A DNA stretch of 50,551 nt, from positions 1 to 50,551 of the forward strand of contig SFCB01000109.1 of the NCBI GenBank assembly GCA_004367505.1, read 5' to 3'. This DNA comes from Chloroflexi bacterium OHK40 (GTDB lineage Bacteria; Chloroflexota; Chloroflexia; Chloroflexales; Chloroflexaceae). This document shows, piece by piece, positions 3,067-47,053 of this stretch; within the stretch, counting starts at the first letter, position 1, and each line of letters opens with the position of its first letter. The translations under genes and the position numbers were made by a program. The notes beneath the pieces were generated by a model, which was not told the DNA's origin, made no database searches, and saw only the letters and a list, made by a program, of their open reading frames with translations.

Positions 3067-3075
3067 CGCAATCTC

Positions 3076-4431: not shown

Positions 4432-4464
4432 GGATGGTTCACCTTCCGGCAGTTGGCGTGCCGG

Positions 4465-5963: not shown

Positions 5964-6037
5964 TGGTGGTTTCCTTGTGGCCGGTTCGTGCTGCGCGAGG
6001 CTGTCGGAATTGCACCTCGCGCAGCACGCCCGGGCTG

Positions 6038-7234
6038 CTACCGGGCCGGCACGAAGGCGCCGCCCTGGACCTGATAGAGGAAGAAGCTCGCGTTCTGGAT
6101 GTCGCCCTTCGTGTCAAAGGCGATCGGGATGCCGAGCAGGCTCTCAGCCTGGTTGGTCTGCGCAATTGCGTCGCGCACCGCGGCGCGGGTGAGCGGGCCT
6201 TCGGCGCTGGCGCGAAGGATCGCCTCGAGCACGACCATCGCCGCAGTGTAGGCCGGCGGGCCGAAGGGGCCGACCGCCCCATGCCTCGACGTGTAGGCCT
6301 CGATCACGGGCTGCGCCGACGGTAGGTTCGTCACATCCGGCGCGAAGAAGGAGACATAGGCGCCCTCCGTCGCACCGCCAGCGTTGGCAATAAAATCCTC
6401 GGTCATCAGGCCATCGCCGCCGAGCAGGAGCGCCTGCACACGCTGCTCCTGCATCTGCCGGGCGAGCAGGGCGCCTTGCGATGCGACCTGGGTGCCGAGA
6501 AAGACGGCGTCCGGCTGGTCGGCGCGCATGCGTGTCACCAGGGCCGAGAAGTCGGTTTCGTCCTGGCCCACCGACTCGCGCACCACGGCGACGCCGGCCG
6601 CGCGCAGCTGCGCTTCGATCGCGTCCACCAGACCCACGCCGTAGCTCGACTGGTCGTCGATCAGCCAGACCCTGGTCGCGGCCAGGCGCTGCAGGAGAAA
6701 CTGAGCGACCGTCGCGCTCTGCACGTCGTCGCGCGGGACCACCCGGAAGACGTTGGGGAGGCCCTGCTCGGTCAGGTCGGGCTTGGTGGCCGACGGCGAG
6801 ACTAGGGCCAGGTCGGCTGCGGCCAGCAGGGGGGCCACGGCGGCGACCTCCTGGCTGCCGGCCGGCCCGATCACGGCATAGATCGCTTCGTCGGCAAGGA
6901 GCCGCTGGGCCAGGGTGGTGGCCTTGGCCGGGTCGAGCTCGGTATCACCTTCGACGAGCTCGATGTTGGTACCGTGCTCGGCGTTGAACTGCTCGACGGC
7001 CAGGCGCACGAAGTTGAGCTGGGGCTCGCCCACGGCGGCCGCGCCGCCGGTGAGGGGCGCCATCAGCGCGATCTTGATCGGTCGCTCCTGGTCTGCCTCG
7101 GCGGCGGGCGCGTTAGATGGAGCGCCGCTGGCGCCACAGGCGGCCAGGACGACGCTCAAGGCCAGGAGCAGCACGAGCGTCCAGTGGAAAGGTAGCTCCG
7201 GTCGACGACTCATCGGCTCGGGTGTACGGTTCAT
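6038..7234 (-). CDS. livJ: Branched-chain amino acid type substrate-binding lipoprotein LivJ
   Basis: Extracytoplasmic receptor of the LIV importer (398 residues). The ATG at 7234 is preceded by GGAGG at a good distance. It gives a lipoprotein signal with lipobox LAAC (Cys33), whereas upstream in-frame starts would bury the signal. The mature part begins with IKIALMAPLTGGAAAVG and continues with VIGPAGSQEVAA and PSATKPDLTEQG, characteristic of periplasmic-binding-protein type 6 (ANF receptor-like) domains. It is the first gene of the operon, 74 bp upstream of the GNAT gene. The true ligand cannot be read from sequence; amino acids, amides or urea are all handled by this family. Confidence 0.9.
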   Translation of the reverse strand: MNRTPEPMSRRPELPFHWTLVLLLALSVVLAACGASGAPSNAPAAEADQERPIKIALMAPLTGGAAAVGEPQLNFVRLAVEQFNAEHGTNIELVEGDTELDPAKATTLAQRLLADEAIYAVIGPAGSQEVAAVAPLLAAADLALVSPSATKPDLTEQGLPNVFRVVPRDDVQSATVAQFLLQRLAATRVWLIDDQSSYGVGLVDAIEAQLRAAGVAVVRESVGQDETDFSALVTRMRADQPDAVFLGTQVASQGALLARQMQEQRVQALLLGGDGLMTEDFIANAGGATEGAYVSFFAPDVTNLPSAQPVIEAYTSRHGAVGPFGPPAYTAAMVVLEAILRASAEGPLTRAAVRDAIAQTNQAESLLGIPIAFDTKGDIQNASFFLYQVQGGAFVPAR

Positions 7235-30722: not shown

Positions 30723-30815
30723 GGGGATCTCCTCTCCTGCGGGTCAGACACATCATTCGTTGGTGCGATACATGCCCGCAGTATGGCACAGGGTGAAATA
30801 CGGCGAAAGCGCGCT

Positions 30816-30834
30816 GTGGCCCACCGGTGGCCAG
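30816..30834. promoter_or_regulatory. Candidate operator upstream of the metal ATPase gene
   Basis: A perfect 10-bp palindrome CCACCGGTGG (30821-30830), extended to a near-palindrome by TGG(C) and CCA, lies about 100 bp upstream of the ATPase start, between it and the regulator gene. It could be a binding site for the neighbouring Fis-type response regulator. This rests on symmetry and position only. Confidence 0.3.
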
Positions 30835-30869
30835 GCCAGATAGCCTACCTGGGCCACCCGGCGGGCTGA

Positions 30870-32108
30870 TCAGGTGTCAGCGATCTTGTACTTCTCCAGT
30901 CGATAGAGCAGCGTATGGCGGGTCAGGCCGAGCAGTTCGGCAGCGCGGGTCTTGTTGCCCCCGGCGCGGGCGAGCGCCTGGCGGATGAGCGCGATCTCCA
31001 ACTCCACCAGGGACAGGCCCTCGGGCGGGAGGCGCACAGGCGCGTTCGGTAGCGGCGCTGAGCGCACCCGCTCAGGCAGGTGCTGCACCTCGATCGGTCC
31101 CGCACCGGCCAGCTTGTCGGCCCGCTCGATCGCGGCGCGCAGCTCGCCCAGATTGCCCGGCCAGTCGTAGGCGTGCAGTAGCTCGGCTGCGGCCGGGGCG
31201 ATTGCCCGGTTGGGCAGCCAGGCGGCAACGAAGGGCAGCAGGTCGTCGAGGTGAGCGCGTAGCGGCGGTACCTCGACCACGACATAGCGCTGGGGTAGCG
31301 CTGGAGCGGCCGCCCACTCGTCGGCGGTGCCGGTGAGCAGGAGCAGGGGGCCGACACCGCTTGCGCTGCGGTGTTCGAGCAGGCGTACCAGCGCATCGGC
31401 GCCTGAGCGGCTCAGCCTGCCGATGTGGCGCAGCAGCAGCACCCCGCTGCCCGCCGCGCGCCAGTAGCCCGCCGCGCGCCCATCGCCGTCCAGCATGGTG
31501 CTCTGCTCGGCCGCCGGCAGCACCCCCAGATCGCAAACGACGAGCGGCGCGGTGCTCCGGGGCGATGCCAGGTGCGCGGCCCGCCCAACGCTTGCGCGGC
31601 CGCTGCCCGGCTCACCAATGAGTCGCACATCCAGGCCCTGGGCCAGGGCATCTGCGCACGCCGTGATTGCCGCACGCCAGGCCGGGTCGCTGCCTGGGGT
31701 TGGTGGCGGCGCCCCGCCTTTCAGGCGCGCAATCTCCGCCTGGAGGTGCTGACGCTCCAGGGCCCGGCTTAGCTTGAACAGCACCTCTTCGACGTCGAAG
31801 GGTTTGCGCAGGTAGTCTGCCGCGCCGCTCTGCAGCGCCTCGACGGCAGTGGCCACCGTGCCGAAGGCGGTCAGGATCAGCACCACCACCTTGGGCCAGC
31901 GGGTGCGGATCTGCCGCAGGGTTGCCAGCCCGTCCATACCCTTCATCTTCAAGTCGAGGATGGCCACATCGATCGGTGTCTTGACCAGCGTGGCCAGCGC
32001 CTCCTCGCCAGAGCTGGCGGTGTGGGTGTCATAACCGGCGTTGCCGAGCGCCTCCTGAAGCACCCAGCGCATGTTCGGCTCGTCATCGATGATCAGCACC
32101 TGCGCCAT
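30870..32108 (-). CDS. NtrC-like response regulator with degenerate ATPase domain
   Basis: Regulator of 412 residues. The receiver domain has acidic pair DDE at 8-10, phospho-Asp52 in ILDLKMKG, and Lys in RKPF. The central AAA+ domain is decayed: Walker A reads GEPGSGRAS (Lys to Arg), the Walker B region reads GVLLLRHIG where FLDEIG is expected, and no GAFTGA loop is found. The C-terminus is a Fis-type helix-turn-helix (NKTRAAELLGLTRHTLLYRL). It should bind DNA but not drive sigma-54 open complex formation. The start at 32108 was chosen because the receiver begins there; it overlaps the kinase gene by 26 bp. Confidence 0.88.
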   Translation of the reverse strand: MAQVLIIDDEPNMRWVLQEALGNAGYDTHTASSGEEALATLVKTPIDVAILDLKMKGMDGLATLRQIRTRWPKVVVLILTAFGTVATAVEALQSGAADYLRKPFDVEEVLFKLSRALERQHLQAEIARLKGGAPPPTPGSDPAWRAAITACADALAQGLDVRLIGEPGSGRASVGRAAHLASPRSTAPLVVCDLGVLPAAEQSTMLDGDGRAAGYWRAAGSGVLLLRHIGRLSRSGADALVRLLEHRSASGVGPLLLLTGTADEWAAAPALPQRYVVVEVPPLRAHLDDLLPFVAAWLPNRAIAPAAAELLHAYDWPGNLGELRAAIERADKLAGAGPIEVQHLPERVRSAPLPNAPVRLPPEGLSLVELEIALIRQALARAGGNKTRAAELLGLTRHTLLYRLEKYKIADT

Positions 32109-33444
32109 GGGCAAGCTCCTGGGGAATAGTGATGCTGACGCGCGTCCCCTGACCCAGGGCACTTTCAAAGCGCAGCTTCCCGCCGTGCTCCTGTACCACG
32201 GCGGCCACCAGAGCCAGGCCCAGGCCAGTGCCCTCGGGACGAGTGGTGAAGAAGGGGTCGCAGGCCCGCTCCTGCTCCTCGGGCGACATGCCACGCCCTG
32301 TGTCGGCCACGGAAAGCGTCGCAGTCGCTCCATCAGAAGCACCGACAAGGCGCACCACACCCCCAGTCGAGCTTGCCTGCACCGCGTTCAGCAGCAAGTT
32401 CAAGAGCGCCTGGCGAAGCTGCTCCTCGTCTGCCACAATCGTCGTGCCGGTCACAGCTTCACACACCACGCTGACCCCCTGATGAAGCGCGTAGGGCCGC
32501 ACCTGCTGCGCGGCGGCGTCAAGCAAGCCTGCCAGGTCGAGCGGCGTGGGCAGGGGCGGTCGCGGGCGGGCGTACTCCAGCAGGTCGCTGATCAGCCGCT
32601 CGATCCGGTCGGATTCGCTGGTGAGCACCTGGGTGTACTGACGCAGCGACGCGTTCTCGCCGGCCAGGCCGGCAAGGAGTTGGGCGGTAGCGCGAACGAT
32701 GGCGAGCGGGTTGCGCACCTCGTGGGCGACCCCGGCGGCGAGCTGGCCGACCGAGGCCAGGCGGTCAACCCGGCGCAACTGGGCCTCCAGGGCGCGGCGG
32801 TCGGTCAGGTCCTCGATCACCAGGACGCGGCTGTCATCCGACGCGGCGGGGGCGTCGAGCGATGAGACGTAGAGGCCGAGCGGGCGCTGGCCCTGCTCGA
32901 AGGAGTGGTAGCCGAGGGCCAGGGGACGGGCCAGGGCCTCGGGCGGCAGAGCTGGGAGCAGGGTGTGCGCCGCTCGGTTCTGGGGCGTAGGCGGGCTCCA
33001 CCCGCTGGTGGTCGCCACGCCGAGGGGCAAACTTTGCAGCACCGCGTCGATGTAGCTGCGCAGCCCCTCCGCGCGGCGGCGCTGCGCCCGCTCGCGGTCG
33101 GCGAGGAAGCCGACTAGTCCGCCGACGAGCAGGAAGACTGGCAACTCGAGCAGGTTGTCGGCCGTGCCACCGGACAGGGTCTCGCCCATGCCAAGCACGT
33201 GCGGCAGGTAGAGCAGCGTGACAACCACGCTCACTGCGAGGCCGCCGCGCAAGCCGAATGCGACGGCGGCCCCGGCGATCGGCAGGTAGTAGAGGCTGCG
33301 GTAGACGGTGTGGTACTCCAGCAGGTGCGCGCCGGTCAGATAGTGCAGTACGGTGACGGCAAGAATGACGACCGCGACGAGCGCCAGCACAACTGCCTGG
33401 CTACGCGGGAGCCGGAAGACCGGCGTGGCACGAGCGACATCCAT
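32083..33444 (-). CDS. Membrane sensor histidine kinase
   Basis: Kinase of 453 residues, partner of the overlapping response regulator. The N-terminal 110 residues form about four transmembrane helices with very short loops, so the signal may be sensed in or at the membrane. A short PAS-like segment follows. The phospho-acceptor His is in GVAHEVRNPL, the N-box in LNLLLNAVQAS, and G-boxes in DTGRGM and GTGLGLAL. The layout resembles NtrB/ZraS/AtoS-type kinases. It lies in the putative metal-stress operon, 52 bp after the DUF305 gene. Confidence 0.9.
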   Translation of the reverse strand: MDVARATPVFRLPRSQAVVLALVAVVILAVTVLHYLTGAHLLEYHTVYRSLYYLPIAGAAVAFGLRGGLAVSVVVTLLYLPHVLGMGETLSGGTADNLLELPVFLLVGGLVGFLADRERAQRRRAEGLRSYIDAVLQSLPLGVATTSGWSPPTPQNRAAHTLLPALPPEALARPLALGYHSFEQGQRPLGLYVSSLDAPAASDDSRVLVIEDLTDRRALEAQLRRVDRLASVGQLAAGVAHEVRNPLAIVRATAQLLAGLAGENASLRQYTQVLTSESDRIERLISDLLEYARPRPPLPTPLDLAGLLDAAAQQVRPYALHQGVSVVCEAVTGTTIVADEEQLRQALLNLLLNAVQASSTGGVVRLVGASDGATATLSVADTGRGMSPEEQERACDPFFTTRPEGTGLGLALVAAVVQEHGGKLRFESALGQGTRVSITIPQELAHGAGADHR

Positions 33445-33496: not shown

Positions 33497-34111
33497 CTAC
33501 TGCTCAATCCCATACCACTCGCTGAGCCACTGGCGCATCTGGGCGATCTCGGCCTCCTGGGCGCTGATGATCGCCTGCGCCAGGTCTTTGAGCTCCTGAT
33601 GCTCAGCGTTCTGCAGCGCGTCCCGGGCCATGGCGATCGCGCTCTCGTGGTGCGGGATCATGGCCTGGATAAAGCGCTGGTCGAAGGGAGCATCGCCGGC
33701 TGGTACCTCGGTCGGCCCCATATCCATCACCATGCCGCCGGTCTCGGCGAGATCGGGGTACCAGGCGGTACGCCACTCTTTCATCTGGCCAATCTCGGCC
33801 TCCTGGGCCATGAGGATGGCGTTCGCCAGATCCTTGACCTCCTGCCGCTCGCCCTGCTCCAGCGCCTGGTTGGCCATGAAGATCGCGCCCTCATGATGCA
33901 CGATCATGCTGTCGATAAAGACAGCGTCGTAGGGCTGGCCCTCAGCGGGGATCACGCCGTGATCCATACCTCCCATCCCGCCATGATCCATTTCAGCTAT
34001 CGCCTCAGCCGTTGGCTCGGTCGACATTTGTGTCGCCGGACTGCCACAACCGGCCAGGAGCGCAAGCAATAGAAGAGCGGAGCAAACAATTCCAGTATGC
34101 CTCGGACCCAT
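33497..34111 (-). CDS. DUF305 lipoprotein with two DUF305 units
   Basis: Exported lipoprotein of 204 residues; the ATG at 34111 follows AGGAAGGA and gives a signal with lipobox LAGC (Cys22). Two helical units repeat the pattern F-I-x-x-M-I-x-H-H-E-x-A-I ... LA-x-A-I-x-x-A-Q-E-A-E-I-x-Q-M, spaced about 95 residues apart (around residues 73 and 160). A Met/His-rich stretch (MDHGGMGGMDHG) precedes the first. DUF305 proteins are ferritin-like and often found with copper resistance genes. This is the first gene of the putative operon and probably binds metal outside the membrane. Confidence 0.88.
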   Translation of the reverse strand: MGPRHTGIVCSALLLLALLAGCGSPATQMSTEPTAEAIAEMDHGGMGGMDHGVIPAEGQPYDAVFIDSMIVHHEGAIFMANQALEQGERQEVKDLANAILMAQEAEIGQMKEWRTAWYPDLAETGGMVMDMGPTEVPAGDAPFDQRFIQAMIPHHESAIAMARDALQNAEHQELKDLAQAIISAQEAEIAQMRQWLSEWYGIEQ

Positions 34112-34491
34112 GGATGCGTCCTTCCTGTCGACTCTGCGTTCACTCATTCCCTGTATTGGACTACCTGGAAGAGGTTAGCACGGAGGTGGGAGCCGGTCAA
34201 AATGTCGCGGACATGCGCCTAAAATCAGGCGACAACTGCCGCAAATCACACGAAAGTGTGTGATTACGCACGCCTCGCTTATCCACTACCTTTGCACTTT
34301 TAACCACCGCTATGCCGCAAGCTGGCGGACAATGGCGGCAAAGGCTTTCTGATGCTGAAACTACTGGCGCAGCCAGTTGAGCAGATGGGGTCGTCAAACA
34401 GCACCTCGATGTCCAAGTGCACGGCCAGATGGTGGATCAGGGCATCGCGGGCTTGAGTAGGAGAAGTTCGTGCTTGAGGCCGTCAGAGCGC
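34112..34491. other. 380-bp stretch without a supported gene
   Basis: It holds the presumed promoter of the DUF305 operon and a palindrome at 34244-34265. Between about 34300 and 34480 the minus strand can be read as short protein-like pieces (AFAAIVRQLAA, ALIHHLAVHLDIEVLF) broken by stops, possibly the worn remains of a transposase. I could not identify a family. Confidence 0.4.
34244..34265. promoter_or_regulatory. Palindrome upstream of the DUF305 operon
   Basis: AATCACA and TGTGATT arms (7 bp, perfect) flank an 8-bp centre, and an inner CAC/GTG pair extends the symmetry. It is AT-rich relative to its surroundings and lies about 130 bp upstream of the DUF305 start, so it could be an operator. 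It could equally be a hairpin of unknown role. Confidence 0.35.
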
Positions 34492-36231
34492 TCACGGGCG
34501 GTACGTGGCTGCGTGAACTGCGCCGGTAGCGGCCGGGCCAGCACTGACCACGTGACCGTCGCGCAGCTCAAGATGGTAGCTGGCCACAGCCACAACCGCC
34601 GGATCGTGGGTGGCGAGCAGGATGGTCACCCCGGCGGCACTGAGGGAGCGCAGCAGCCCGAGGACGCGGCGGCCAGTGGCGGGGTCGAGGTCGCCGGTCG
34701 GTTCGTCGGCGACGATCAGCTCGGGGCCGGGGGCGAGGGCGCGGGCGATCGCCACACGCTGTTGCTGGCCGCCGCTCAGCTCGTAGACGCGGTGATGCGC
34801 CCACGGCCAGAGCCCCATTGCCTCCAGGCAGGCCCGGATGCGGCCTGCCCATTCGCTGCGGGGCACACCGTCCGCCAGCCGCAGGCCCAGTTCGACGTTC
34901 TCGTAGGCCGAGGAGGAGGGCAACAGGGCAAAGCTCTGGAACACCAGGCCGAGGCGTCGGCGCAGGGTCGCGCGGGCCTCCTCATCCAGCGCACTGAGGT
35001 CGGCGCCGAGGACGTTGACGCTTCCGGCCGTCGGGCTGTCGAGCGCGGCCACGAGGTTGAGCAGCGTGGTTTTGCCGCTGCCGCTAGGCCCGGTGAGCGC
35101 CACGAGTGCGCCGTGGGGCACGTCCAGGCTCACGCCGCCAAGGGCGAGCACGCGCCCGCCCGGCCCGTCAAAGCTGCGCTCCACGTCCTGTAGCGTGATC
35201 GCCGGTCGATCCGGCAGCGCCCGCCCCGGAAGATCCGGGTAGAGGGTAGTCACGAGATCGGTGGGCACTTCAAGCGCCTGGGGCTGGGGGTCGTGGGCGA
35301 GAGGCGGCAGGTTGCCAGGTGTTTGCGGCACCTCGGCGAGCGGGGGCGCGTCGCAGGGGATGATCCGCAGGGCGTTACCCGCCAGCTCTACCTGGGCACG
35401 ACGCCAGAGGCCGGCCCGCGCCCGCAACTCGGCGGGCAGTTGGAGGCGGCCGGCGGAGTCGATCACCGTGAGCTCGCCGTGAGCGCCGGCTGTGCCGGCG
35501 CCATGCGCGACTTCCAGCGGGCTTGCCGCCTGGTTGCGTCGCTCACCGCTGACCCGACCGTCACGGATGGCCACCACCCGGTCGGCCTCGGCTGCCACCC
35601 GGTCGTCGTGGGTGACAACGATCACGGTCAGGCCGAAGCGTGCGCCCAACTCGCGCAGCAGATCGAGGATGGAGCGGGCGGTGGGCCAGTCCACCTCGCC
35701 GGTGGGCTCGTCACCGAGCAGGATGCGCGGGCGGGCGGCGAGGGCCGCAGCGATGGCCACCCGCTGCTGCTGGCCACCCGAGAGCTGGGCGAGGGAGCGC
35801 CCGGCGTGCTCGGCCATCCCGACGGCCTCCAGCATCTCGTCGGCCCACGCCCGTCCAGCGTGGCGCGGACGCCCGTCGAGCGCCAGCAGCAGCTCCACGT
35901 TCTCGCGGGCGCTGAGGGCCGGCAGCAAGTTCCGGGCTGTCTGCTGCCACACAAAGCCAACCTGACGGCGCCGGTATGCGGTGAGCTGTGAGGGGCTCAT
36001 GGCAAGCAGATCGGCTCCGTCGACGCGCAGCCGGCCCGCGCTCGGGCGGTCGAGGCCGCCGATGGCGCTGAGCAGGGTGGACTTGCCGGAGCCGGACGGG
36101 CCGACAAGGGCGACGAACTCGCCCCAGGCGACTTCTAGATCGAGCCCCTGGAGCGCCACGACTTCAACTCCGGCGACCTTATAGATCTTGTACAGGCCCT
36201 CGGCCTGGATCAGCGGTGTTGCGTTCACCAT
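34492..36231 (-). CDS. Double ABC ATPase (LolD/MacB-like) with AbrB-like linker
   Basis: Two complete nucleotide-binding domains in one 579-residue chain. Domain 1: GPSGSGKS (44-51), LSGGQQQ (150-156), Walker [11 protein letters not shown]. Domain 2: GPSGSGKT (381-388), [18 protein letters not shown]. Both look catalytically competent (Glu and H-loop His present). Between them, residues 253-291 read [20 protein letters not shown]...LRIIP, the layout of an AbrB/MazE swapped-hairpin DNA-binding unit. No transmembrane helix is present. The partner is the FtsX-type permease gene upstream. LolD/MacB-like ATPases are normally single-domain, so the fusion is unusual. Confidence 0.88.
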
Positions 36232-36247
36232 ATCCTCAATCAGATCA

Positions 36248-36266
36248 CGACCGCTAGTTGCGGTCG
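36248..36266 (-). other. Perfect hairpin between permease and ATPase genes
   Basis: CGACCGC and GCGGTCG arms (7 bp) around a 5-nt loop lie in the 167-bp gap just ahead of the ATPase gene. It could attenuate, stabilise or separate the downstream transcript; there is no T-run to make it a convincing terminator. Confidence 0.35.
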
Positions 36267-36398
36267 CCCCTTCATGCTCCCAGAGCGAGAGAAGGGGGAG
36301 ACGAACAACCAGCGCACCGAGCCACGTCTGGCTCCCATCTTCCTCTTCGGGAGCGGGGTTGGAGTAAGGACATACCGAGCGACTGCTGTGGTACCAGG

Positions 36399-39215
36399 TT
36401 AGTTGCTGTCGCCCATCTTGACGATGGCGAAGAGACGGGCTCGGCGCAGAGCTGTGCCGAGCCCGCCGAGGGCCAGGATCACAGCGGCGGCGAGGCTGAT
36501 CGCGGCGATGCCGATCGGGGCCCAGGCCACGCGCGGCTCGCCGGGCGGTGTACCCGGGTGCGGGCCGACGCCGACCTGGAGCATGGGGACCACCAGCAGT
36601 GCGCCGAGTAGGCCGATCGCGACCCCGACGATCAGGCCGGCCGCGACGATAATCACCTGCTCTATGCCGAGGACAGCGGTCGCGGAGCGGCTGGGCATGC
36701 CCATCGCTCGCAACACACCCAGTTCGACCAGGCGCCGCCGGGCAGTGATGGCCGTCGCCGCGAGAAAGCCCAGGGCGGTAAGCGACCCTGACCCGACGAA
36801 TCCGATCGAGAGTAGGCCGAAGAGCCCCTGACGCTGGGGCCGGGCCTGCTCGGCCCGTAGCAGCGTCTCGACGTCGCGCACCTCCACTAGATCGACGCCC
36901 AGCGCGCGAACCCCGGCGGCGATGGCGGCGACGTCGGCGCCCGGTGCATAATCGATCCAGACATCGTAGGGGTACTGGCCGCCCATCTGGTCGAAAAGGT
37001 AGTCCAGGTTGGTGAGCACCAGGGGACCCTCCTGGGGATAGAAGCCAGGGAAAAGCGCCACCACACCTACAACGATCATGTCGATATCGCGGCGATCGCC
37101 GAACAGCTCCGCGCTCACCGTGATGCGGTCGCCGATCCGCACTCCGCGCTCAAGCAGTTCCGGCCCGACCAGGGCGCCGGCGGGCTGAGTTGCGAGGCGG
37201 TTCATCAGCTCGCCGAGCGAGGTACCCCCGGCCCAGGCCGGATTGAAGCCCCGCAGCACCTGCGGCATGGTGTGTCGATCCACGCCGACGAGTTGAGCCG
37301 TAGTGCCGGCAATGCGGCCGGTGTAGCGCCCCACCCGCGAGGCCGCCGTGATCCCCGGCACGTCGAGGTGTTCTTCCACCGGCAAGAAGAGAAAGCGTGG
37401 TTCCTCCTCGATGTCGTGGCGCTCGGGGCGCCCATCAGGGCCGACCGTCTCGGTGCTCTCCCCGGTCTCGATCAGCTGGGCGGCCGCACCGACGTTGTAG
37501 GTTACCCCGCGGATCATGGCGTCGTCGAGGGCGGTGGCGGCGGCCGCGCTAAAGATCGCGAGGCTCAGGGTCAGGATCAACAGGAGCAACGGTCCGCGGT
37601 AGTCGCCCGGCTGGCGGGCGAGGGTGCGCAGTGCGACAACGAGCGCGGTGCTCTCGCGGCGGGCGGCCGCTCGTACCGTCAGCTCCAGCAGTGGCGGCAG
37701 CAGCCGCAGGAAGATCAGTCCCAGGCTGAGGCTGAGTAGCGCCGGCACGAGCACCAGCAGCGGGTTGGCCGTGAGGTCGCGCCCGGCTCCCGCGCCCAGC
37801 AGCGGCCCACCGCCCGCGTGGAGTTGGTAGACGCCGTACAGCGGCAGCGGCAGCAGGAGCAGGTCGAGCCAGCGGCGCTGCCAGAAGGCGGGGGCCTCGG
37901 GGCGGGCCGCGGCCTGCTGCACGTCGGTGAGTGTGCGCCGCGTGGCACTCAGAGCGGGCAGGAGCACGGCGAGCAGCGCGGCGGCCACGGCTGCGGCGCC
38001 GACGGTGAGGTGGGTTGGGGTGAGCACCAGGCGCAGCTCGGGCAGAGCCGGGTCGAGGCGCAGGAACGAGCTGGTGCGGGACATCAGGACCGCGAAGGCC
38101 AGGCCCAGCGGCGCACCCAAGGCCAGGGCGGCCGTGCCGAGAGTCAGCCACTCCAGCGCCACCAGGCCGAGGATCTGGCTGTCGCGGACGCCCCTGGTTT
38201 TGAGCAAGGCGATCTCAGGGGCCTGGCGCCGGAGCATCAGGCCGCCGACCATGGCCACAAAGGAGAGCACGAGCGCGGCGATCGGCGCGCCGAAGACGAC
38301 CAACTGGGCGGTCAGGGCGGCGCTGTCCCGCTGGTACTGGCCGAGCGCGCCCGCCGGACTCTGCTCCAGTCGCGTCCCGGGCAGCGCTCCGGCCACGGCG
38401 GAACCGAGGGCGTCGATCCGCCTCACGAGCGCGCCCGCTGTTGCAGCGTTCAGGCCGGCGCCGTCAAGGCGCGCAAACCAGAGCGCCTGGTCCACCTCGC
38501 CTGTCAGGGTGGCAGCGAGGGGGCCGGCAAAGTCGGCCTCGGCGAGCAGCAAGACCTGGTCGAGAGCCTCGGGCGGGTAGAACCAGGTTGGGTCGTCGGG
38601 GCTGAGCGGCTCCCAGAGCCCCGCAATGCGCACGGGCACGCCTACGGAACGCCCACTGGAGCGGCCAATCGCCGTCAACTCGTCGCCGACATTGAGGCCG
38701 ACACGGTTCGCCAGGGCGCGGGCGATGAGCACCTCCAACGGGTCGCCCGGCGATACGGCGGGCTGTGGCATCGACCCATCCACCACGCGGATCTGGTCGT
38801 CCATGCCTGCCACAAAGCCGAGCGAGCCGTCAATCAGGTGGGCGCCGTATCCGCTTGCGGTCAGGGGCATGGCGGCGGTGCGGACGTGGCGGGCTACGCG
38901 TTCCACCGGCAGGCCCACGTGTTCCAGGGCCTCACCGACCAGACCATCAGCGGGGGCGACCCGTTCCCAGTCCAGCGGTTTGCCCCAGGAGCCGAGATAA
39001 CGGATGAGCAGGGCGAAGGCGGGGCGCCCGCTGCGCTGCTCTTGCCGCTCCAGCGCCTCGCGGAGCAGGCGCAGCCCGGCCGCCTCGGCGTAGACGGGGA
39101 TGGCCACGGCCAGAGCGACGGCCATGGTAAGGGCAGCCAGGGCGCACCAGGCCAGCCAGCCGCTTGTCCGCAGGCGACGTATGGCGATCGACAGCAGAGT
39201 CAGCGTGCTGCTCAT
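36399..39215 (-). CDS. Large FtsX-type ABC transporter permease
   Basis: Membrane protein of 938 residues with two FtsX units. The first helix is at about 20-42, followed by a large extracytoplasmic domain (about 43-300) and helices near 304-328, 350-378 and 404-424. A second cluster and another large extracytoplasmic region (about 590-800) come next, and the chain closes with three helices including VELGVLRAMGMPSRSA, the typical FtsX coupling motif. A first coupling motif, EIALLKTRGVRDSQI, follows the first cluster. Such permeases couple ATP hydrolysis to mechanical work on lipoproteins, peptides or drugs rather than to classical import. It overlaps the adaptor gene by 4 bp (ATGA). Confidence 0.88.
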   Translation of the reverse strand: MSSTLTLLSIAIRRLRTSGWLAWCALAALTMAVALAVAIPVYAEAAGLRLLREALERQEQRSGRPAFALLIRYLGSWGKPLDWERVAPADGLVGEALEHVGLPVERVARHVRTAAMPLTASGYGAHLIDGSLGFVAGMDDQIRVVDGSMPQPAVSPGDPLEVLIARALANRVGLNVGDELTAIGRSSGRSVGVPVRIAGLWEPLSPDDPTWFYPPEALDQVLLLAEADFAGPLAATLTGEVDQALWFARLDGAGLNAATAGALVRRIDALGSAVAGALPGTRLEQSPAGALGQYQRDSAALTAQLVVFGAPIAALVLSFVAMVGGLMLRRQAPEIALLKTRGVRDSQILGLVALEWLTLGTAALALGAPLGLAFAVLMSRTSSFLRLDPALPELRLVLTPTHLTVGAAAVAAALLAVLLPALSATRRTLTDVQQAAARPEAPAFWQRRWLDLLLLPLPLYGVYQLHAGGGPLLGAGAGRDLTANPLLVLVPALLSLSLGLIFLRLLPPLLELTVRAAARRESTALVVALRTLARQPGDYRGPLLLLILTLSLAIFSAAAATALDDAMIRGVTYNVGAAAQLIETGESTETVGPDGRPERHDIEEEPRFLFLPVEEHLDVPGITAASRVGRYTGRIAGTTAQLVGVDRHTMPQVLRGFNPAWAGGTSLGELMNRLATQPAGALVGPELLERGVRIGDRITVSAELFGDRRDIDMIVVGVVALFPGFYPQEGPLVLTNLDYLFDQMGGQYPYDVWIDYAPGADVAAIAAGVRALGVDLVEVRDVETLLRAEQARPQRQGLFGLLSIGFVGSGSLTALGFLAATAITARRRLVELGVLRAMGMPSRSATAVLGIEQVIIVAAGLIVGVAIGLLGALLVVPMLQVGVGPHPGTPPGEPRVAWAPIGIAAISLAAAVILALGGLGTALRRARLFAIVKMGDSN

Positions 39216-40951
39216 GGCCCGACCACTACGTCGCCCTCGTCGACGCCCTCCAGGATCTCGACCCGCTCGACACTCTCGATGCCGGTGCGAACCACAACAC
39301 GGCGCTCGCGGTCGCCCTCGCGAACCACAATGAAGCGGCGGCCCTCGAAGGAGCGGATCGCCTCGGGCGGCAGCCAGAGCACATCCTCGCGGCGTTCGAG
39401 CACGACGCTGATCCTGACGAGGGCGCCAGACTCCAGGCCGCGCGCGGCGTCGCCGAGATCGAAGCGCGTAGTGCGGTCTTGCTCAGCCACAGCGCCGCTG
39501 CCGCCGGAGCCGTAGGGCGCGGGGAGGCGGCGCACATTCGCGGGCAGCGCCAGGTCGGGGCGGGCGACAAGGCGGGCCTCGGCGGGCTGGCCCTCGGCAA
39601 GCTCCCGCATCTGCTCTGCCGTCAACTCGGCGGCCAGCTCCAGGCGTGAGGGATCGGCCAGCTCCACTACGGGCTCGTAGGGCTCCACGCTATCGCCGAC
39701 GCCGACGCCGACAGCGACAATGGTTCCGTCGCGCGGGGCGATGACGCGACCCTCGTCTACGCTGCGGCGGGCGCGCTCCAGGTCCAGTTGGGCCTCCTCC
39801 AGGGCCCGTAGCTCCGTATCGAGGGCGTCCTGCTCGGCGGCCTCCAGGCCGAGACGAGCGCGGGCGAGGGCCGTCTCGGCGTCGGCGACGCTAGCGCGGC
39901 GGGCCTGCTCCAGCTCCAGGCGCGCGTCCTCCACGCGCCGGCGGGCCTGGGTCAGCGCCTCGCTGCCCTGACCGGTCCGTAGCAGCTCCAGGGCGCGCTC
40001 GGCCTCGGCCACAGAGCGGGCGGCCTCGTCCTGGGCGCGGGCCTCGGCCTCGTTGGCGAGGATCACCGCCCGCTCGGCAAGGGGCAGTTCGCGCTCGGCG
40101 GCGCGGAGCTTGCGCTCGGCCTCCTCGAAGGTGCGCTGAAAGGCGACCCGCTCTTGGTCGTCGAGCCGGCGGTGGCGCTCGGCGCCCGTGGCCGGGTCGG
40201 TCACCTTCTCGCGGGGGTGCGTGCCGTACTTTTGAACCCAGTCGTAATCCCAGAAGGCGTCGGAGTAGACCTGCTGGGCAGCGGCGACGGCCTCGCTAGC
40301 GGCGATCAGCTCATTCTGGGCCCGGGTCTTGGCCTCCGAGGCCTCGTCGGTGGCGATCTTCGCCGCGTCGCGGGCCTCCTGAAGGTCGCGCTCGGCCTGC
40401 GCGATCAGGCTCTCGGGGCCGTCGGCGGTGAGCCGGGCCAGGTCCTCCTCGGCCCGACGCAGGGCCAACTCAGCCTCGGCGATGCGGGCGGCCCGCTCGG
40501 CGCGGCCGTTCTCCAGGTTCCGTCCGGCCTCGCTCAGGTCGAGGCGGGCCTGGGCCACCGCACGCTCGCGGCGCTGCCGGGCCAACTCCAGATCGCGCTC
40601 GGCCTGGGCCACGCGGACCTCGGCCTGCGCCAGTTCCTCCAGGGCCTCGTCGTGGACAATTTCGGCCAGGATATCGCCGGCCTGCACGGTGTCGCCGCGG
40701 CGCACGTTCACGGCGGCCACCCGGCCTGCGGCGCGGAAGCTCAGGCGCTCCAGGTCCACCGGAATGACTCGGCCGGTGACTTCGAGCAAGCGCTCGACGG
40801 AGCCGCGCTGGACGGTATATGTCGGTCGCTCCAGGGCCGGCGCCGGCGGCATGGGCGTGGGCGTCGGCGCCTGCTGGGCCGCAGCGGGAGTGCCGCACGC
40901 AGCAAGCAGCAGCAGGAGCGGGAGCAAGGTGGAGGGAAGCAGAGGTTTCAT
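39212..40951 (-). CDS. HlyD/MFP-type adaptor lipoprotein with long coiled coil
   Basis: Lipoprotein adaptor of 579 residues (lipobox LAAC, Cys19). The two lipoyl half-motifs are visible: RAAGRVAAVNVRRGDTVQAG early, and EGRVIAPRDGTIVAVGVGVG much later. Between them lie more than 300 residues of heptad-rich, Ala/Glu/Arg coiled-coil sequence, longer than in most MacA or YknX proteins. A C-terminal beta-barrel region follows (ISVVLERREDVLWLPPEAI). The ATG at 40951 starts the signal peptide; an upstream in-frame start would bury it. Lipid anchoring fits a cell with one membrane or an inner-membrane anchored adaptor. It works with the overlapping FtsX permease. Confidence 0.87.
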   Translation of the reverse strand: MKPLLPSTLLPLLLLLAACGTPAAAQQAPTPTPMPPAPALERPTYTVQRGSVERLLEVTGRVIPVDLERLSFRAAGRVAAVNVRRGDTVQAGDILAEIVHDEALEELAQAEVRVAQAERDLELARQRRERAVAQARLDLSEAGRNLENGRAERAARIAEAELALRRAEEDLARLTADGPESLIAQAERDLQEARDAAKIATDEASEAKTRAQNELIAASEAVAAAQQVYSDAFWDYDWVQKYGTHPREKVTDPATGAERHRRLDDQERVAFQRTFEEAERKLRAAERELPLAERAVILANEAEARAQDEAARSVAEAERALELLRTGQGSEALTQARRRVEDARLELEQARRASVADAETALARARLGLEAAEQDALDTELRALEEAQLDLERARRSVDEGRVIAPRDGTIVAVGVGVGDSVEPYEPVVELADPSRLELAAELTAEQMRELAEGQPAEARLVARPDLALPANVRRLPAPYGSGGSGAVAEQDRTTRFDLGDAARGLESGALVRISVVLERREDVLWLPPEAIRSFEGRRFIVVREGDRERRVVVRTGIESVERVEILEGVDEGDVVVGP

Positions 40952-41106
40952 CAACGGGCTCTCGATCTGTCGCCCCGCAGATAGGCGCGGGGCGATGCGT
41001 ACGTACGGCGCCTGGCGCAGAAACAGGCGACCGTGCGGCCATCCTGGAAGAACGAGCCGCTGCAGCAAGCCATAGCTGCTCCGACGTTCCGCTGCTGCAT
41101 TCCATG

Positions 41107-43713
41107 TCAGCGCGGTCCGAGGCCCTCGTACTCAGGGTCGACCTTGGCGGCGCAGCTCGGCGGGTCCTGGGCGTCGGCGGCGCAGGCGAGGTACTGCTCG
41201 GTGAGCGTCTCGGCCCTGGCCAACTCCTGCTCCAGGTCGCCACCCTGGAGGGCGTTATCGACGGCCCGCATCAGCCAGAAGAGATCCACGCCGTCGTAGG
41301 GGTCCTGCGTACTCTCGGGGCGAGCAAGGGCCTCGGCGTAGACGGCGTAGACCTCGGCGGCGCCGGGGCGGGCCTGCTGGAGGAAGGCCGGGGAGGTGGC
41401 GACGGAGGCGCGGGCGGGGAAGCGCTCGCCCAGCCCCTCGGCCTGCTCGCTGAGAAACTTCAGCCACTCCCAGCACGCCTCAGGGTTCCGGCTTGTGGCG
41501 GAGATCTGCATGGCCGTGGTGCGGAAGTCGGCGGAGCTGAGGCCGCGCTCGCCGAGGGCCGGCGGGGCGACGGCAAGATCGGGCTGTTCGGACTGCCCCG
41601 CGCCGACGACGATCATGATCTGCCCGTTGTTGAAACCATTTGTAAACCACATCCCTACCCGCCCCTCGCGGCCAAGGGCCTCCACCACGCTGTCCGCGAA
41701 GGTGCCGGCGGTGTAGCCCTGGAGCCGGGTGTGGGGCGAGTACTCGCGCAGCAGTTCGATGTAGTCGCCGATCGCCTGCACAACCTGCTCGTCCGTAAAA
41801 CGCGGTCTGCCGTCGGCGATCGGCGAGGCGTCCTGCCAGTCCAGAAAGGCCAGCAGATCATCGGTGTGAGAGCCGGTCACGCCGTAGCCGTAGCGCTGGT
41901 CGGGGCCGGAGGCATCGGTGAGGCGGCGGGCGGCCTCCAGCAACTCGGCAAGACTCCAGTCGGCGCGGGGGGCCTCCAGGCCGGCGGCCGCGAAGGCGCC
42001 TCGGTTGTAGTTCAACGAGCGGAGTTGCACACTGTAGGGCAGCCCGTAGAGCGCCGCGCCGTCCCGGTATGGGGCGAGGAGCCCGGCCGGGTAGTCGTCG
42101 GCGTCGAAGCCGGCATCGCCGTCGATCAAGGGCTGCAGGTCGAGCAGGGCCTCGCGCTCGCGGGGGTTGGGGGCCGTCGGCCAGACGAGACAGTCGTAGC
42201 GCTCGGCGAGGCTCGTCAGGGAGAAGGTGGAGTCGAAGGTGGGCGGCTCGACGGTGACGTAGATACCGCGGCCCTCGGCGTTGAAGCGCGCGGCCAACTC
42301 CCGCAGGGCGGGCAGTTCGGCGCCGAAGGCGCCGAAACTGATCGCCGTCGCGCCGGCGGGGACGACTACGGGGTCGGGGAGCTGCACCTGCAACGGCCCG
42401 GCGGTGGGAGTCGGAGCGGCGACCTGCTCGGCAAGCTGCCGGGCCAGGTTTGCGCCATGCTCGGCGAGGGCCTGCTCGACCGGCGTACCGGCGGCGACAG
42501 AACTCAGGGCGCCGCCCAGGTTGCCGCGCACGAGCGTGGCGCCTGCGGGTGGGAGCGCGTCGGCACCGTCGAGCGTGACCTCGATCGCAGCGGCCCGCTC
42601 CGACGAGAGCCCCTCCCAGAAGCCTGTAGCCTCGGCTAGCGAACGGCGGGCAGGGACATCCACGCCGAGGCCGAAGATAACCATGCCGTTCTGGGCCGTG
42701 GGCTGCTCGCGGCTGAGGTAGCTCAGCCAGCGCCAGGCCGCCTCGGGGTTCGCGCTGCCCACGCTCAGCATGTAGCCACGGCTGGCGATGACGGCGTCTC
42801 GGGGCAGTGGTGGGAGGGCGATGTCGCCTACGGCGAAGGCGGGCCGCTCTGCCATCGGGCCGCCGAGCAGCAGGTCGCCGCCCAGCCACATCGCCACGCG
42901 GCCCTCGCGGACGTGGGCGCCGATCTGCTCCATCGAGACCGGGCTGTCTCGCTGCGGACTCCGGTAGAGCACGCCGCGCTCCAGCAGATCCGCCACCCGC
43001 TCCAGCGCCGCAGCCACCTCAGGCCGGTCGAGGACGTAGCTGCCATCAGCGGCGGGGGCCAGGGGCACGCCGGCCTCAACCAGTAGGCCCTGGAGCACCA
43101 CGCGACCGTCCTGGCCATCGTCGAGGCCGTGGACGAGCACCTCGTCGCCCCGGCGCTGCGTGAGCTGCTCGGCGGCGGCGAGGACCTGCTCCCAACTCAT
43201 GCGACCGGTGGGCGCGGGCATGCCAGCGGCCTCCCAGAGATCACTGTTGTAGCTCAGCGTCTGGACGCTGAGGTGCGTGGGCAGCGTGTAGATGGGACCG
43301 TCGGCCGGCAGGGCGCCGGGTTGGAAATCGTCGCGGTCGAAGCCGCCGTCGGCGTCGATCAGCGGGCGCAGGTCGGCTATCGCGCCCGACGCCGCCGCCT
43401 CAGGCCCGGCGAGCATCGAGGTGAAGGTATCGGCGGACGAGGCGGCGTAACGGGCGAGATCGGTAGCGTCGCCGCCGTCCAGATTGGGCTCCAGGGGCAC
43501 AAAGACCACCTGGAGGTCGGGGTTGGCGATGTTGAAGGCTTCGATCATCGGCTCGTACATCGGCCGTTCGAACTCCAGAGCGGCGAAACCGATCCGGGTT
43601 GCTCCCGCAGCCGGCGGCGAGCCCGACGGCGCGGCGGGAGCGGGCGACTGCAGCGCGCAAGCGCTCAACGACATCGCCAGGGCGCAGAGGATTATGGTAA
43701 CGGTGCGCACCAT
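41107..43713 (-). CDS. Tandem-duplicated extracellular solute-binding lipoprotein
   Basis: Lipoprotein of 868 residues (signal with lipobox LSAC, Cys19) made of two related solute-binding domains. The units echo each other: DLRPLIDADGGFDRDDFQPG near residue 115 against DLQPLIDGDAGFDADDYPAG near 545; LSVQTLSYNSDLWEAAGM against YSVQLRSLNYNRGAFAAAGL; NPEAAWRWLSYLS against NPEACWEWLKFLS. Each resembles a family-1 (carbohydrate type) binding protein. A Pro/Thr-rich linker joins them near 440-460. No MalF/MalG-type permease is nearby; the downstream genes encode an adaptor and FtsX permease. It may act as a receptor for the divergent kinase rather than for import. ATG 43713 starts the signal. Confidence 0.85.
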   Translation of the reverse strand: MVRTVTIILCALAMSLSACALQSPAPAAPSGSPPAAGATRIGFAALEFERPMYEPMIEAFNIANPDLQVVFVPLEPNLDGGDATDLARYAASSADTFTSMLAGPEAAASGAIADLRPLIDADGGFDRDDFQPGALPADGPIYTLPTHLSVQTLSYNSDLWEAAGMPAPTGRMSWEQVLAAAEQLTQRRGDEVLVHGLDDGQDGRVVLQGLLVEAGVPLAPAADGSYVLDRPEVAAALERVADLLERGVLYRSPQRDSPVSMEQIGAHVREGRVAMWLGGDLLLGGPMAERPAFAVGDIALPPLPRDAVIASRGYMLSVGSANPEAAWRWLSYLSREQPTAQNGMVIFGLGVDVPARRSLAEATGFWEGLSSERAAAIEVTLDGADALPPAGATLVRGNLGGALSSVAAGTPVEQALAEHGANLARQLAEQVAAPTPTAGPLQVQLPDPVVVPAGATAISFGAFGAELPALRELAARFNAEGRGIYVTVEPPTFDSTFSLTSLAERYDCLVWPTAPNPREREALLDLQPLIDGDAGFDADDYPAGLLAPYRDGAALYGLPYSVQLRSLNYNRGAFAAAGLEAPRADWSLAELLEAARRLTDASGPDQRYGYGVTGSHTDDLLAFLDWQDASPIADGRPRFTDEQVVQAIGDYIELLREYSPHTRLQGYTAGTFADSVVEALGREGRVGMWFTNGFNNGQIMIVVGAGQSEQPDLAVAPPALGERGLSSADFRTTAMQISATSRNPEACWEWLKFLSEQAEGLGERFPARASVATSPAFLQQARPGAAEVYAVYAEALARPESTQDPYDGVDLFWLMRAVDNALQGGDLEQELARAETLTEQYLACAADAQDPPSCAAKVDPEYEGLGPR

Positions 43714-43783
43714 GGGCGCTCTCCTTTCATACTCGAGCTGGCGGGGTTCGGCCCCGGGCAGTGGTGAGCATAGCTGAGCGGCT

Positions 43784-43827
43784 GTAAAGAACTGATGAAG
43801 CTCCTATCAGATAGTTATGAAGTTCGA
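43784..43827. promoter_or_regulatory. Four-unit 11-bp repeat array, candidate OmpR-type regulator site
   Basis: Consecutive 11-mers GTAAAGAACTG, ATGAAGCTCCT, ATCAGATAGTT and ATGAAGTTCGA share a (A/G)T-x-A-A/G-A/G start at 11-bp spacing, and ATGAAG recurs exactly 22 bp apart. OmpR/PhoB-type regulators bind head-to-tail repeats with this period. The array lies between the divergent regulator gene and the binding-protein gene, so it could control both. Confidence 0.55.
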
Positions 43828-43932
43828 TCCCCGTGAGGGACCTGGCTGTTACAATCGGGAACAACCGCATCGCCGCAGCGTTATGAGCTGCGACAACGCA
43901 GGAATGGCGACCATTCATCACGGATCACCGCT

Positions 43933-44649
43933 ATGGCCCTTACCGCACTGGTTGTGGACGACGACCCGAAGACGGTCGAGCTGATCACGCTCTATATGGA
44001 GCGCGAGGGCTTCACCGTCGTGAGCGCCTACGACGGCCGTCGGGCTCTCGACCTCGCCCGTCAGCGACACCCCGACCTGATCGTGCTTGACCTGATGTTG
44101 CCCCACGTCGACGGGCTCGACATCACGCGCATCATCCGCAGCGAGTCCCGGGTGCCCGTGATCATGCTCACGGCCCGCACCACCGAGCACGATATGCTGC
44201 TCGGACTCGACCTCGGCGCCGACGACTATGTGACCAAGCCGTTCAGCCCGCGCGAGTTGATGGCTCGGGTGCGGGCGGTGATGCGCCGCGCCCGGGCCGC
44301 CTACGAGTCCGCCCCGGCGATCGTGCGTTACCGCGAGCTCGTGATCAGCTTTGCGAGCCGCGAGGTGCGCCGCCACGGGGAGTTGGTGCGCCTGACGCCG
44401 AAGGAGTACGGCCTGCTGGAGCTGATGGCCCGCTCGCCCGGGCGGGCTTTCGCCCGCGCTGAGCTGCTCCGACACGTTTTCGGTGCGGACTATGAAGGTC
44501 TCGACCGCACCGTCGATGTCCATGTGATGAACCTGCGCCGCAAGATCGAGCCTGACCCGGCAAACCCCTGCTACGTACTCACGGTCTACGGCTACGGCTA
44601 CAAGTTCGGCGCGGAGAGCGAGAGTCCGGCGGGAGGGACAGCGCTGTGA
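43933..44649 (+). CDS. OmpR/PhoB-family response regulator
   Basis: Regulator of 238 residues. The receiver has DDD at 9-11, phospho-Asp53 in [12 protein letters not shown], Thr in MLTART and Lys in TKPFSPRE. The C-terminal winged helix contains [31 protein letters not shown] and the recognition region [16 protein letters not shown], ending in the usual YGYGYKF. The stop overlaps the GTG of the kinase gene. Divergent from the binding-protein/efflux-like genes and next to an 11-bp repeat array, it probably controls them and itself. Confidence 0.93.
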
Positions 44650-46268
44650 GCAACATCCTTATGCTCCACTCACTGCGCTTGCGCCTGCTGCTGACCATGA
44701 TCGCCCTGGTGGCGCTCACGGCGGGCGCTGTGGCGGTTCTGGCGTGGCGGATTACTGTCTCGGAGTTCGAGCGCTACCTTGCGCTGGAGAGCGAGCGCAG
44801 TCGTCGTGTCGGCGAGTTGTTCACGGCGGCGAGCGAGTTGCCCAGGCTCGATCAGGCCGGGCGGGAGGCGGTGATCCGCGCGATGAGCGAACAGTCCGGC
44901 TACAGGGTGGTGCTCGCGGAGACCACCGGCACGATCCTGATCGACTCAGCCGGCCTCGCCCTGGGGTGGAACGCCCGCGACCTCGACCCGTCCGAGGTGC
45001 TGATCGTCCGGCTCGACCCGGTCCCGGCGGGGAGCTCCCTTAGTACCCCGGGAGCCGACGTCGAGGTCGTCCTGGGAACGCCGCCAGAGCTGAGCGCGCC
45101 GCCGATCCTCGGCCCAACAGCGGTCCCGGTTCAGGGTTCCGCTGTGCAGGCGTCGCAGCCGGGCGCTTTCGTGGTCTACTCCACGCTGCCGTTCTCGGAC
45201 ACGGCGGCGAGCGAGGCCGCCTCCATGGTGCAGCTGGCGGGTTCTCCAGTGAACATCCAGTGGTCGCAATTCGCCGGCCCCGACCCGATCCAGGCCAGCT
45301 TCGTCAGTGGGGTCAACCGCTCGCTGGGGCTAGCCGTGGTGGTGGCGGGGCTGGCGGCGCTGGTGCTGACGGCGGTGCTTTCACGGGGGATCATCGGCCC
45401 ACTTGAGGAGTTGCGCGCCGTGGCTACGCGCATGGCGACGGGCGATTTGAGCGGCCGGGTGAGCGTGCGCTCGCGGGACGAGATCGGCGCACTGGGTCGG
45501 GCTTTCAACAGCATGGCCGATGCCCTGGAGCGCGCCGAGCAGCTGCGCCGGACCATGGTGAGCGACGTTGCCCATGAGCTGCGGACACCACTGACGAATA
45601 TGCGGGGCTACCTGGAGGCGATCAGCGATGGCGTCGTCAGTCCGACGCCCCGCACGATCAACTCGCTCCACGAGGAGGCCATGCTGCTCAATCGCCTTGT
45701 GGACGACCTGCAGGACCTGGCGCTAGCCGACGCGGGGCAACTGCGGCTCCGGTACTGCCCGACCGACATGGGCGTGCTCGCCGAGCAGGCGGTGGCCGTG
45801 TTTCGGCCCCGTATGGAGGCGAAGGGCGTGACCTGCGTGCTACGGCTCCCTGAGGCACTTCCGCTTGCCGAGCTCGACGCCGAGCGGGTGGGCCAGGTAC
45901 TGCGGAACCTGCTCAACAACGCCCTGACCCACACGCCTGCCGGGGGCTCGGTGACGGTGGAGGTGCGGGAGCGGGACGAGGACGCCGGGCCGGCGCTGGA
46001 GCTGAGCGTGGAGGATACGGGTGCGGGGATCGCGCCGGAGGATCTGCCGCTGATCTTCGAGCGCTTCTACCGGGCGGATCGCTCGCGGAATCGCGCTACC
46101 GGCGGCGCCGGGCTCGGCCTGACGATCGTTCGGCGCCTGGTCGAGGCCCATGGTGGCGAGGTCACGGTGAGCAGCACGCTCGGCGTCGGCTCGCGCTTCA
46201 CGTTTACCGTGCCAACAGCTCGGGTTGGCGATCAAAGTCCGGCAGCACCTGTCGGGCACGTGCGATGA
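44646..46268 (+). CDS. HAMP-domain sensor histidine kinase
   Basis: Kinase of 540 residues starting at GTG 44646 in a GTGA overlap with the regulator gene. The first transmembrane helix is at about 13-33 and an extracytoplasmic sensor of about 190 residues follows. The second helix is near 227-250, then HAMP ([21 protein letters not shown]). The acceptor His is in [12 protein letters not shown], the N-box in [12 protein letters not shown]-boxes in DTGAGI and GLGLTIV. Its large external domain could contact the duplicated binding lipoprotein encoded next door. The last 20 residues beyond FTFTVP are non-conserved and run up to an IS3 remnant. Confidence 0.92.
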
Positions 46269-46411
46269 AAAGTGGTCTCACTGATGCCGTGCTCGCGACA
46301 GATGGCGCTGATTGACGCCTCGGGCCGCTCGGCCTGCTCCAGGATCGTGACGATCTGCTCGGCTGAGAAGTGACGGGTCTTCACGTGGTCCTCCTGGGGA
46401 GGACTCTACCA
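46264..46411 (-). pseudogene. IS3-family orfA remnant with its left end
   Basis: A GTG at 46384 opens about 38 codons with the orfA N-terminus (TRHFSAEQIVTILEQAER, then [12 protein letters not shown]), a helix-turn-helix of IS3-type elements. The rest of the element is missing and the frame is cut at the end of the kinase gene. Upstream, GTCCTCC and GGAGGAC form a hairpin over the ribosome-binding site, and the element end TGGTAGAGTCC is at 46411. Closely similar to the IS3 start at 50487. Confidence 0.7.
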
Positions 46412-46447
46412 TAGCAACTGGCCCAGATTCCTGGGGGCATCTCGCGA

Positions 46448-46545
46448 CGACGTGGCCCCCGAGCCCGAGGCCGCCGCTGAGGAGCCGGCGGCAGAGCCCG
46501 CGACCGCAGCCGAGTTCGTCGACGCGCCGGCCCCGAAGCCCCTGG
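46448..46545 (+). pseudogene. Fragment resembling an SSB acidic tail
   Basis: A short plus-strand frame reads DDVAPEPEAAAEEPAAEPATAA followed by EFVDAPAPKP. This echoes the tail region of the damaged ssb at 16696-17160 (DDAPAAEEPLAEPEP ... DAPAPK). There is no OB fold and no start. I take it as a duplicated or transposed scrap; low-complexity acidic sequence could also arise independently. Confidence 0.35.
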
Positions 46546-46561
46546 TTTGGATGGCTGTCGC

Positions 46562-47053
46562 TCAGCGACGAAGGGTCGTGGCCCGGCGCTGCTGCTCGTT
46601 CCCTTCACGGTAGCATGTATTCCGAAGCGCCCAGAGCACCATGCCGAGCTGAAGCGTCACTGGCATAGCACGCAGTGCCATGTCAGCGGTGACAAGCTGT
46701 GCAACCAGCTCCGGGGTCGGCCCGGAAAGCGCGAGCTGGCTTTGGAGTGGGATGAAGTAGGCGGGTGTCGCGACCCAGGGCACGAGGGCTAGCAATGCTC
46801 CGACCCAGAGAAACCATCGTGGCATCGCGGGCAGGCCCCGTCGGGCGAGGAGTATGGCGACAATCAGATTGGGAATGCCCAGCAGCGCTGCCAATGGCAC
46901 GAAGTGTCTTTCATGCGCCGCCTGGTAGGCCGGAAAGGCATCTACCGGCACGAGCGGCCAGAGCCGGTACAGCGCGATGTTGACCGTCCAGGCGCAGCCA
47001 ACCGAAGCTGCCGACAGCGTCAGGGCGACGATCGGCAGGGTGGTTCGTTTCAT
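46562..47053 (-). CDS. Hypothetical membrane protein
   Basis: Protein of 163 residues with about four hydrophobic helices (near 7-28, 50-69, 79-100 and 128-146) and a basic C-terminus (NEQQRRATTLRR). GAGAGGAACG precedes the ATG at 47053. Motifs such as HERHFVPLAALLGIPNL suggest a DUF1772-like integral protein, but I am not certain of the family. It stands alone between the IS3 remnant and a small gene on the same strand. Confidence 0.65.
   Translation of the reverse strand: MKRTTLPIVALTLSAASVGCAWTVNIALYRLWPLVPVDAFPAYQAAHERHFVPLAALLGIPNLIVAILLARRGLPAMPRWFLWVGALLALVPWVATPAYFIPLQSQLALSGPTPELVAQLVTADMALRAMPVTLQLGMVLWALRNTCYREGNEQQRRATTLRR

Follow-up and report, generated by a model that had tools for sequence, protein, structure and literature searches.

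Which machine does a solute-binding lipoprotein serve when its binding domain is doubled and no cognate importer is encoded beside it? This question is raised by a gene in a 50,551-nucleotide stretch of contig SFCB01000109.1 from Chloroflexi bacterium OHK40 (the window). A first-pass annotation had read the gene as two family-1-like domains in one lipoprotein, created by internal duplication and lacking a MalF/MalG permease nearby, and had proposed either sensing or an unusual transporter partnership.

The gene (41107..43713, (-) strand) starts with ATG and encodes 868 residues, beginning with a signal peptide and a lipobox (LSAC) whose Cys19 is kept in 63 of 69 relatives. The Pfam SBP_bac_1 profile matches two separate stretches of the protein (E = 5.6e-37, 128.8 bits in total). 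In the genome search the two matches score 70.9 and 63.2 bits, placing both domains above the curated cut-off of 26 bits. The N-terminal domain spans residues 36–433 (42415..43608, (-)) and the C-terminal domain residues 453–843 (41185..42357, (-)); both are defined by the Pfam match and by alignment of one half with the other, and the C-terminal domain also by a fold model. No cytoplasmic anti-sigma domain is found in the window protein, which has a lipoprotein signal peptide only and is a simple lipoprotein to which no output domain is fused.

Alignment of residues 36–433 with 453–843 by BLASTP gives 110 bits and 29% identity over 422 columns (E = 4e-31 in a one-sequence search). The Smith–Waterman score of the N half against the C half is 295, compared with 44.6 ± 7.1 in 500 shuffles (shuffle maximum 77; z = 35). 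The likeness of the two halves is far above chance, and the blocks DLRPLIDADGGFD and DLQPLIDGDAGFD occupy equivalent positions in the N and C halves. The open reading frame, the two domains and their common origin therefore bear out what had been claimed for this gene.

To place the duplication in time, we built a tree of 91 rows from tandem relatives gathered by whole-genome searches, comprising 34 N halves, 34 C halves, and 23 single-domain solute-binding proteins. All 34 C halves lie on one side of a branch with support 94, a group of 31 of the 34 N halves has support 99, and the single-domain proteins are separate from both groups (support 93). The tree does not resolve the other three N halves, which come from distant members and lie near its base. 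The separate grouping of N and C halves indicates that the duplication is ancient, older than the sampled family. The simplest reading of the tree is one duplication before the divergence of that family, although a fusion of sister genes at that time would look alike. Conservation is a little higher in the C half than in the N half, with mean pairwise identities of 0.34 and 0.31, respectively.

Four cysteines (Cys508, Cys747, Cys844, and Cys854) are conserved in 66–68 of 69 relatives. They are confined to the C half and its tail (41152-42357, (-)), with Cys844 and Cys854 just beyond the end of the C domain, and are absent from the N half; they possibly form two disulfides. A model of the C half built from six sequences (pLDDT 71, pTM 0.65, moderate confidence) resembles family-1 sugar-binding proteins. 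Its best Foldseek match (E = 2.4e-16) is to a glucooligosaccharide-binding protein, and the oligosaccharide-binding structures 5yse and 1eu8 are among the matches. In a profile search against the PDB both halves fall into the oligosaccharide-binding class, the fold of the N half being assigned by sequence profile only. A full-length model from three sequences reached a pLDDT of 39 and was not used. Together, the model and the profiles give a hint of an oligosaccharide as the ligand class. With no more than 29% identity between them and different conserved residues, the halves would as likely do two different jobs as add capacity.

The tandem gene is the first of four genes on one strand. It is followed after 155 bp by a gene for a HlyD/RND-type (MacA-like) adaptor lipoprotein (39212..40951, (-)), which scores above the RND_mfp cut-off; its likely start is the ATG at 40951, while an upstream TTG would lengthen the adaptor to 41068. 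The adaptor gene overlaps by ATGA the gene for a 938-residue permease (36399..39215, (-)) with two FtsX domains (PF02687 in two stretches, 60.6 bits, cut-off 25.5). The permease shows nine hydropathy peaks, with about 10 transmembrane segments expected. After a further 167 bp the run ends with a fused double ABC ATPase of 579 residues (34492..36231, (-)) of the LolD/FtsE/MacB type, in which Walker A, signature, and Walker B motifs are intact in both halves. As judged from their domains, the adaptor, the two-FtsX permease, and the double ATPase constitute a predicted type VII (MacB/YbbP-like) ABC machine.

On the other side of the tandem gene, with 219 bp between the starts, lies a divergent gene for a response regulator (43933..44649, (+)). 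It is overlapped by a gene for a sensor histidine kinase with a HAMP domain (44646..46268, (+)), which we count in the module by position alone. A search with Rfam found no RNA elements in 34000-47000. Elsewhere in the window we observe a heavy-metal-type P-ATPase (28182-33444, (-)), preceded on the same strand by a sigma-54-type response regulator and a DUF4118 kinase. A branched-chain-amino-acid-type ABC importer with two ATPases and two BPD_transp_2 permeases (1460-6282, (-)) lies ~35 kb from the tandem gene; importers of this type are not the usual partner of family-1 solute-binding proteins.

The association with the ABC genes recurs in relatives. The tandem profile is matched in 31 of the 82 genomes of the order Chloroflexales, where almost every genome of one family carries the gene, while its distribution in the family of the window is patchy. 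Relatives of the permease at ≥44% identity occur in 18 Chloroflexales genomes, all 18 of which carry a tandem gene. We scored a copy as linked when it lay within 6 kb of adaptor, FtsX, or ABC genes and on the same strand, and counted it as unlinked given 3 kb or more of sequence to both sides. In a first set of 71 tandem copies from 33 genomes or MAGs, which are not independent as they include related genomes and paralogues, 28 are linked and 11 unlinked, and 32 are on contigs too short to score. In a second Chloroflexota class, 48 of 396 sampled genomes match the tandem profile, not all of them across both halves; the regions retrieved contain 43 long copies, 19 of them linked, 14 unlinked, and 10 on too short a sequence. 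An earlier sample of the phylum had held one genome outside the order Chloroflexales with a tandem gene, and the idea of a family restricted to this order is ruled out by the many more copies that the class-level search gave.

Three gene orders are observed among the linked copies. The window and six other loci (L063, L064, L066, L067, L100, and L108) have the tandem gene followed by adaptor, FtsX, and ABC genes. Six loci of the second class (L175, L176, L179, L181, L182, and L187) have the order FtsX, adaptor, ABC, tandem gene, ABC, which places the tandem gene between the ATPase genes; it is likewise wedged between two ATPase genes in L051, from the window's own family. In four further loci of the second class (L191, L193, L201, and L196) the tandem gene precedes FtsX, adaptor, and two ABC genes. 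A link that has survived several rearrangements is good evidence, at the level of gene order, that the products would function jointly. Across both sets, 25 of the 72 copies with enough sequence are unlinked, some of them in paralogue arrays; the ABC machine is thus not invariably encoded close to the tandem gene. Conversely, three loci (L144, L147, and L143) hold paralogous adaptor–FtsX–ABC–ABC operons without a tandem gene, which therefore marks a subset of such operons. Many tandem paralogues per genome are found in G008 and G336 (L043-L060, L101-L107) and at L178, L184, and L189, some in head-to-tail arrays and some broken. Such lineage-specific expansion suggests that the ligands may have diversified.

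In other relatives the tandem ectodomain is part of a signalling protein. Four proteins (L061, L032, L189, and L200) are fusions with an anti-sigma factor. Those of L061, from the window's own order, and L032, from an Anaerolineales MAG, have a cytoplasmic Hx3Cx2C zinc finger, one transmembrane segment, and then the tandem solute-binding part. In both, an ECF sigma gene overlaps the start of the fusion gene by TAATG or ATGA (L061:2326-5822, (-); L032:6882-10285, (+)). Their zf-HC2 scores (21.5 and 14.4 bits) are both below the cut-off of 22.2; the motif, the transmembrane segment, and the overlapping sigma gene are all present. Adaptor and FtsX genes come next in L061, where sigma factor, anti-sigma receptor, and machine thus stand in one run. 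The protein of L189 scores 32.3 bits against the same cut-off and has a sigma gene upstream. That of L200 has the zinc-finger motif and a hydrophobic stretch only, and a sigma gene was not found adjoining it. The anti-sigma label requires at least three changes on a FastTree tree of 110 members, in which long branches are present. At L192 (6230-10374, (+)) a BlaI-type repressor gene is followed by one for a BlaR1 M56 peptidase (HESIH motif) whose outer part is the tandem solute-binding module, that is, a BlaR1-like receptor with a binding-protein sensor. Since in these relatives the ectodomain stands where an anti-sigma factor or BlaR1 would have its sensor, it appears usable as a signal input. 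The end of a tandem gene in L131 overlaps an ECF sigma gene by ATGA.

Of the 43 second-class copies, 8 have two-component genes in their vicinity, as has the window gene. In the window and in L196 these genes are divergent, in L185 and L199 they share the strand of the tandem gene; a kinase gene is downstream of the tandem gene in L191, L193, and L201, and upstream in L050. The link between the tandem gene and two-component systems is nevertheless weak, because kinases are common and genomes that lack a tandem gene (G059 and G049) encode close relatives of the window kinase. The strong form of the idea, a dedicated two-component partner, was rejected on these grounds, the kinase of L099 being only distantly related.

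Taken together, these data make it probable that the tandem lipoprotein is a dedicated extracytoplasmic two-module receptor of the type VII ABC machine, which would sense, or sense and clear, an extracellular ligand rather than feed a MalFG importer. The lipid anchor would hold the ancient receptor outside the membrane, where its two domains may bind a ligand, perhaps of the oligosaccharide kind bound by its fold relatives. The loaded lipoprotein would then dock onto the adaptor and permease, and ATP-driven movement may be converted into work outside the membrane, by which the ligand is handled or removed, its presence is passed on, or both. The divergent two-component system is a possible output in the window. 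Both options of the first-pass annotation are backed by this comparative evidence, but it had missed the partner itself, encoded by the three genes that directly follow the tandem gene on its strand, as well as the anti-sigma and BlaR1 fusions. More tentatively, we consider a broader reading, in which a Chloroflexota-wide receptor module, the ancient tandem ectodomain, would have been swapped among type VII ABC machines, ECF anti-sigma factors, BlaR1-type proteases, and perhaps two-component systems, with the binding protein cueing the ABC machine. The result would be a family of sense-and-respond systems, and for type VII ABCs we found no account of such cueing by a binding protein in the literature searched.

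The signalling fusions could also mean that the tandem lipoprotein is a sensor and nothing more, a receptor for a signalling pathway (here the divergent two-component system) with the ABC machine merely as a regulated target, as in cell-envelope stress modules. The two-component genes close to several tandem copies and the sigma-gene overlap of L131 fit such a role as well. We regard it as unlikely: the kinase is not a dedicated one, its adjacency means little given the abundance of histidine kinases, and the position of the tandem gene inside the ABC operon, even between the ATPase genes, would be needless for a mere regulator.

Two transport functions appear less probable again. As an orphan importer component, the protein would supply sugars in trans to a MalFG-type permease, of which the genome has many, with higher capture from its doubled domains. 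With 106 PF00528 matches and 31 other SBP_bac_1 matches the genome offers candidates, and the fold is that of oligosaccharide-binding proteins. None of the 106 matches, however, lies on this contig, so the reported lack of a MalF/MalG-type permease holds for the contig as a whole; a BPD_transp_1 permease pair, as expected beside a component of a CUT1/MalFGK-type importer, is not found near the tandem gene on the contig searched. Furthermore, within the neighbor classes scored, those that recur beside relatives are adaptor, FtsX, and ABC genes or signalling genes. This function is improbable, and slightly more so is a helper in export, where the complex would be a MacAB-like pump and the tandem protein an extracytoplasmic carrier taking a secreted glycan or peptide from the membrane, as LolA does for LolCDE. 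The RND_mfp score of the adaptor and the MacB/LolD/FtsE-like ATPase agree with a pump, and the legend in a bacteriocin survey has solute-binding proteins drawn among or near AS-48-like HlyD/FtsX/ABC clusters (PMC7132975), which is a partial precedent for the present combination. Among the four genes of the run, though, we noted none for a precursor, a peptide, or biosynthesis, and fusion with signalling proteins in relatives speaks for sensing.

Solute-binding proteins are usually taken as importer parts, whereas here the doubled fold goes together with an ABC machine of the mechanotransmission type and with several kinds of signal transducer in two classes of Chloroflexota; not every such protein should thus be annotated as a sugar transporter. 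If the receptor function is correct, type VII ABC systems, whose function depends on their partner proteins, would gain a ligand-binding input, and the natural domain swaps among lipoprotein, anti-sigma factor, and BlaR1 would allow ligand and output to be tested apart.

The machine is reminiscent of MacAB-TolC, LolCDE-LolA, FtsEX-EnvC, YbbAP-TesA, BceAB, and YknXYZ, with which it shares the FtsX-fold permease, the MacB/LolD-type ATPase, the MacA-like adaptor, and a co-encoded extracytoplasmic partner (PMC12646458, PMC5985334). According to the passages of PMC12646458 on these systems, type VII ABCs work at the outer face of the membrane and typically have a partner protein that determines their function. 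In the passages of both sources that treat them, no partner is a tandem family-1 solute-binding lipoprotein like that of the window. The window differs further in the fusion of its two ATPases, and relatives in placing the tandem gene between ATPase genes. We found no prior description of a tandem solute-binding protein combined with a type VII ABC in the open-licence literature searched.

Two cooperating solute-binding domains, in series in GlnPQ, are also known from GlnPQ/OpuA-type importers (PMC8025302). Those domains are attached to an importer permease or work for it, whereas the window protein is a separate lipoprotein of family 1, not of the amino-acid type, beside an FtsX-type machine. 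For comparison, BvgS/EvgS-type kinases use two Venus-flytrap periplasmic-binding-protein domains in series as signal input. These are amino-acid-type (SBP_bac_3) domains on a kinase, in contrast to the family-1 domains found here on a lipoprotein, an anti-sigma factor, or BlaR1. In Clostridium thermocellum the membrane-bound anti-sigma factor RsgI binds carbohydrate through its outer domain, whereupon the sigma factor is released (PMC12203970), and by analogy the anti-sigma relatives of L061 and L032 would work similarly. RsgI has carbohydrate-binding modules and SigI, while these relatives have tandem solute-binding domains and an ECF sigma factor, and the window protein has no anti-sigma part. 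All the parts come from known families; it is their combination that did not turn up in the literature searched.
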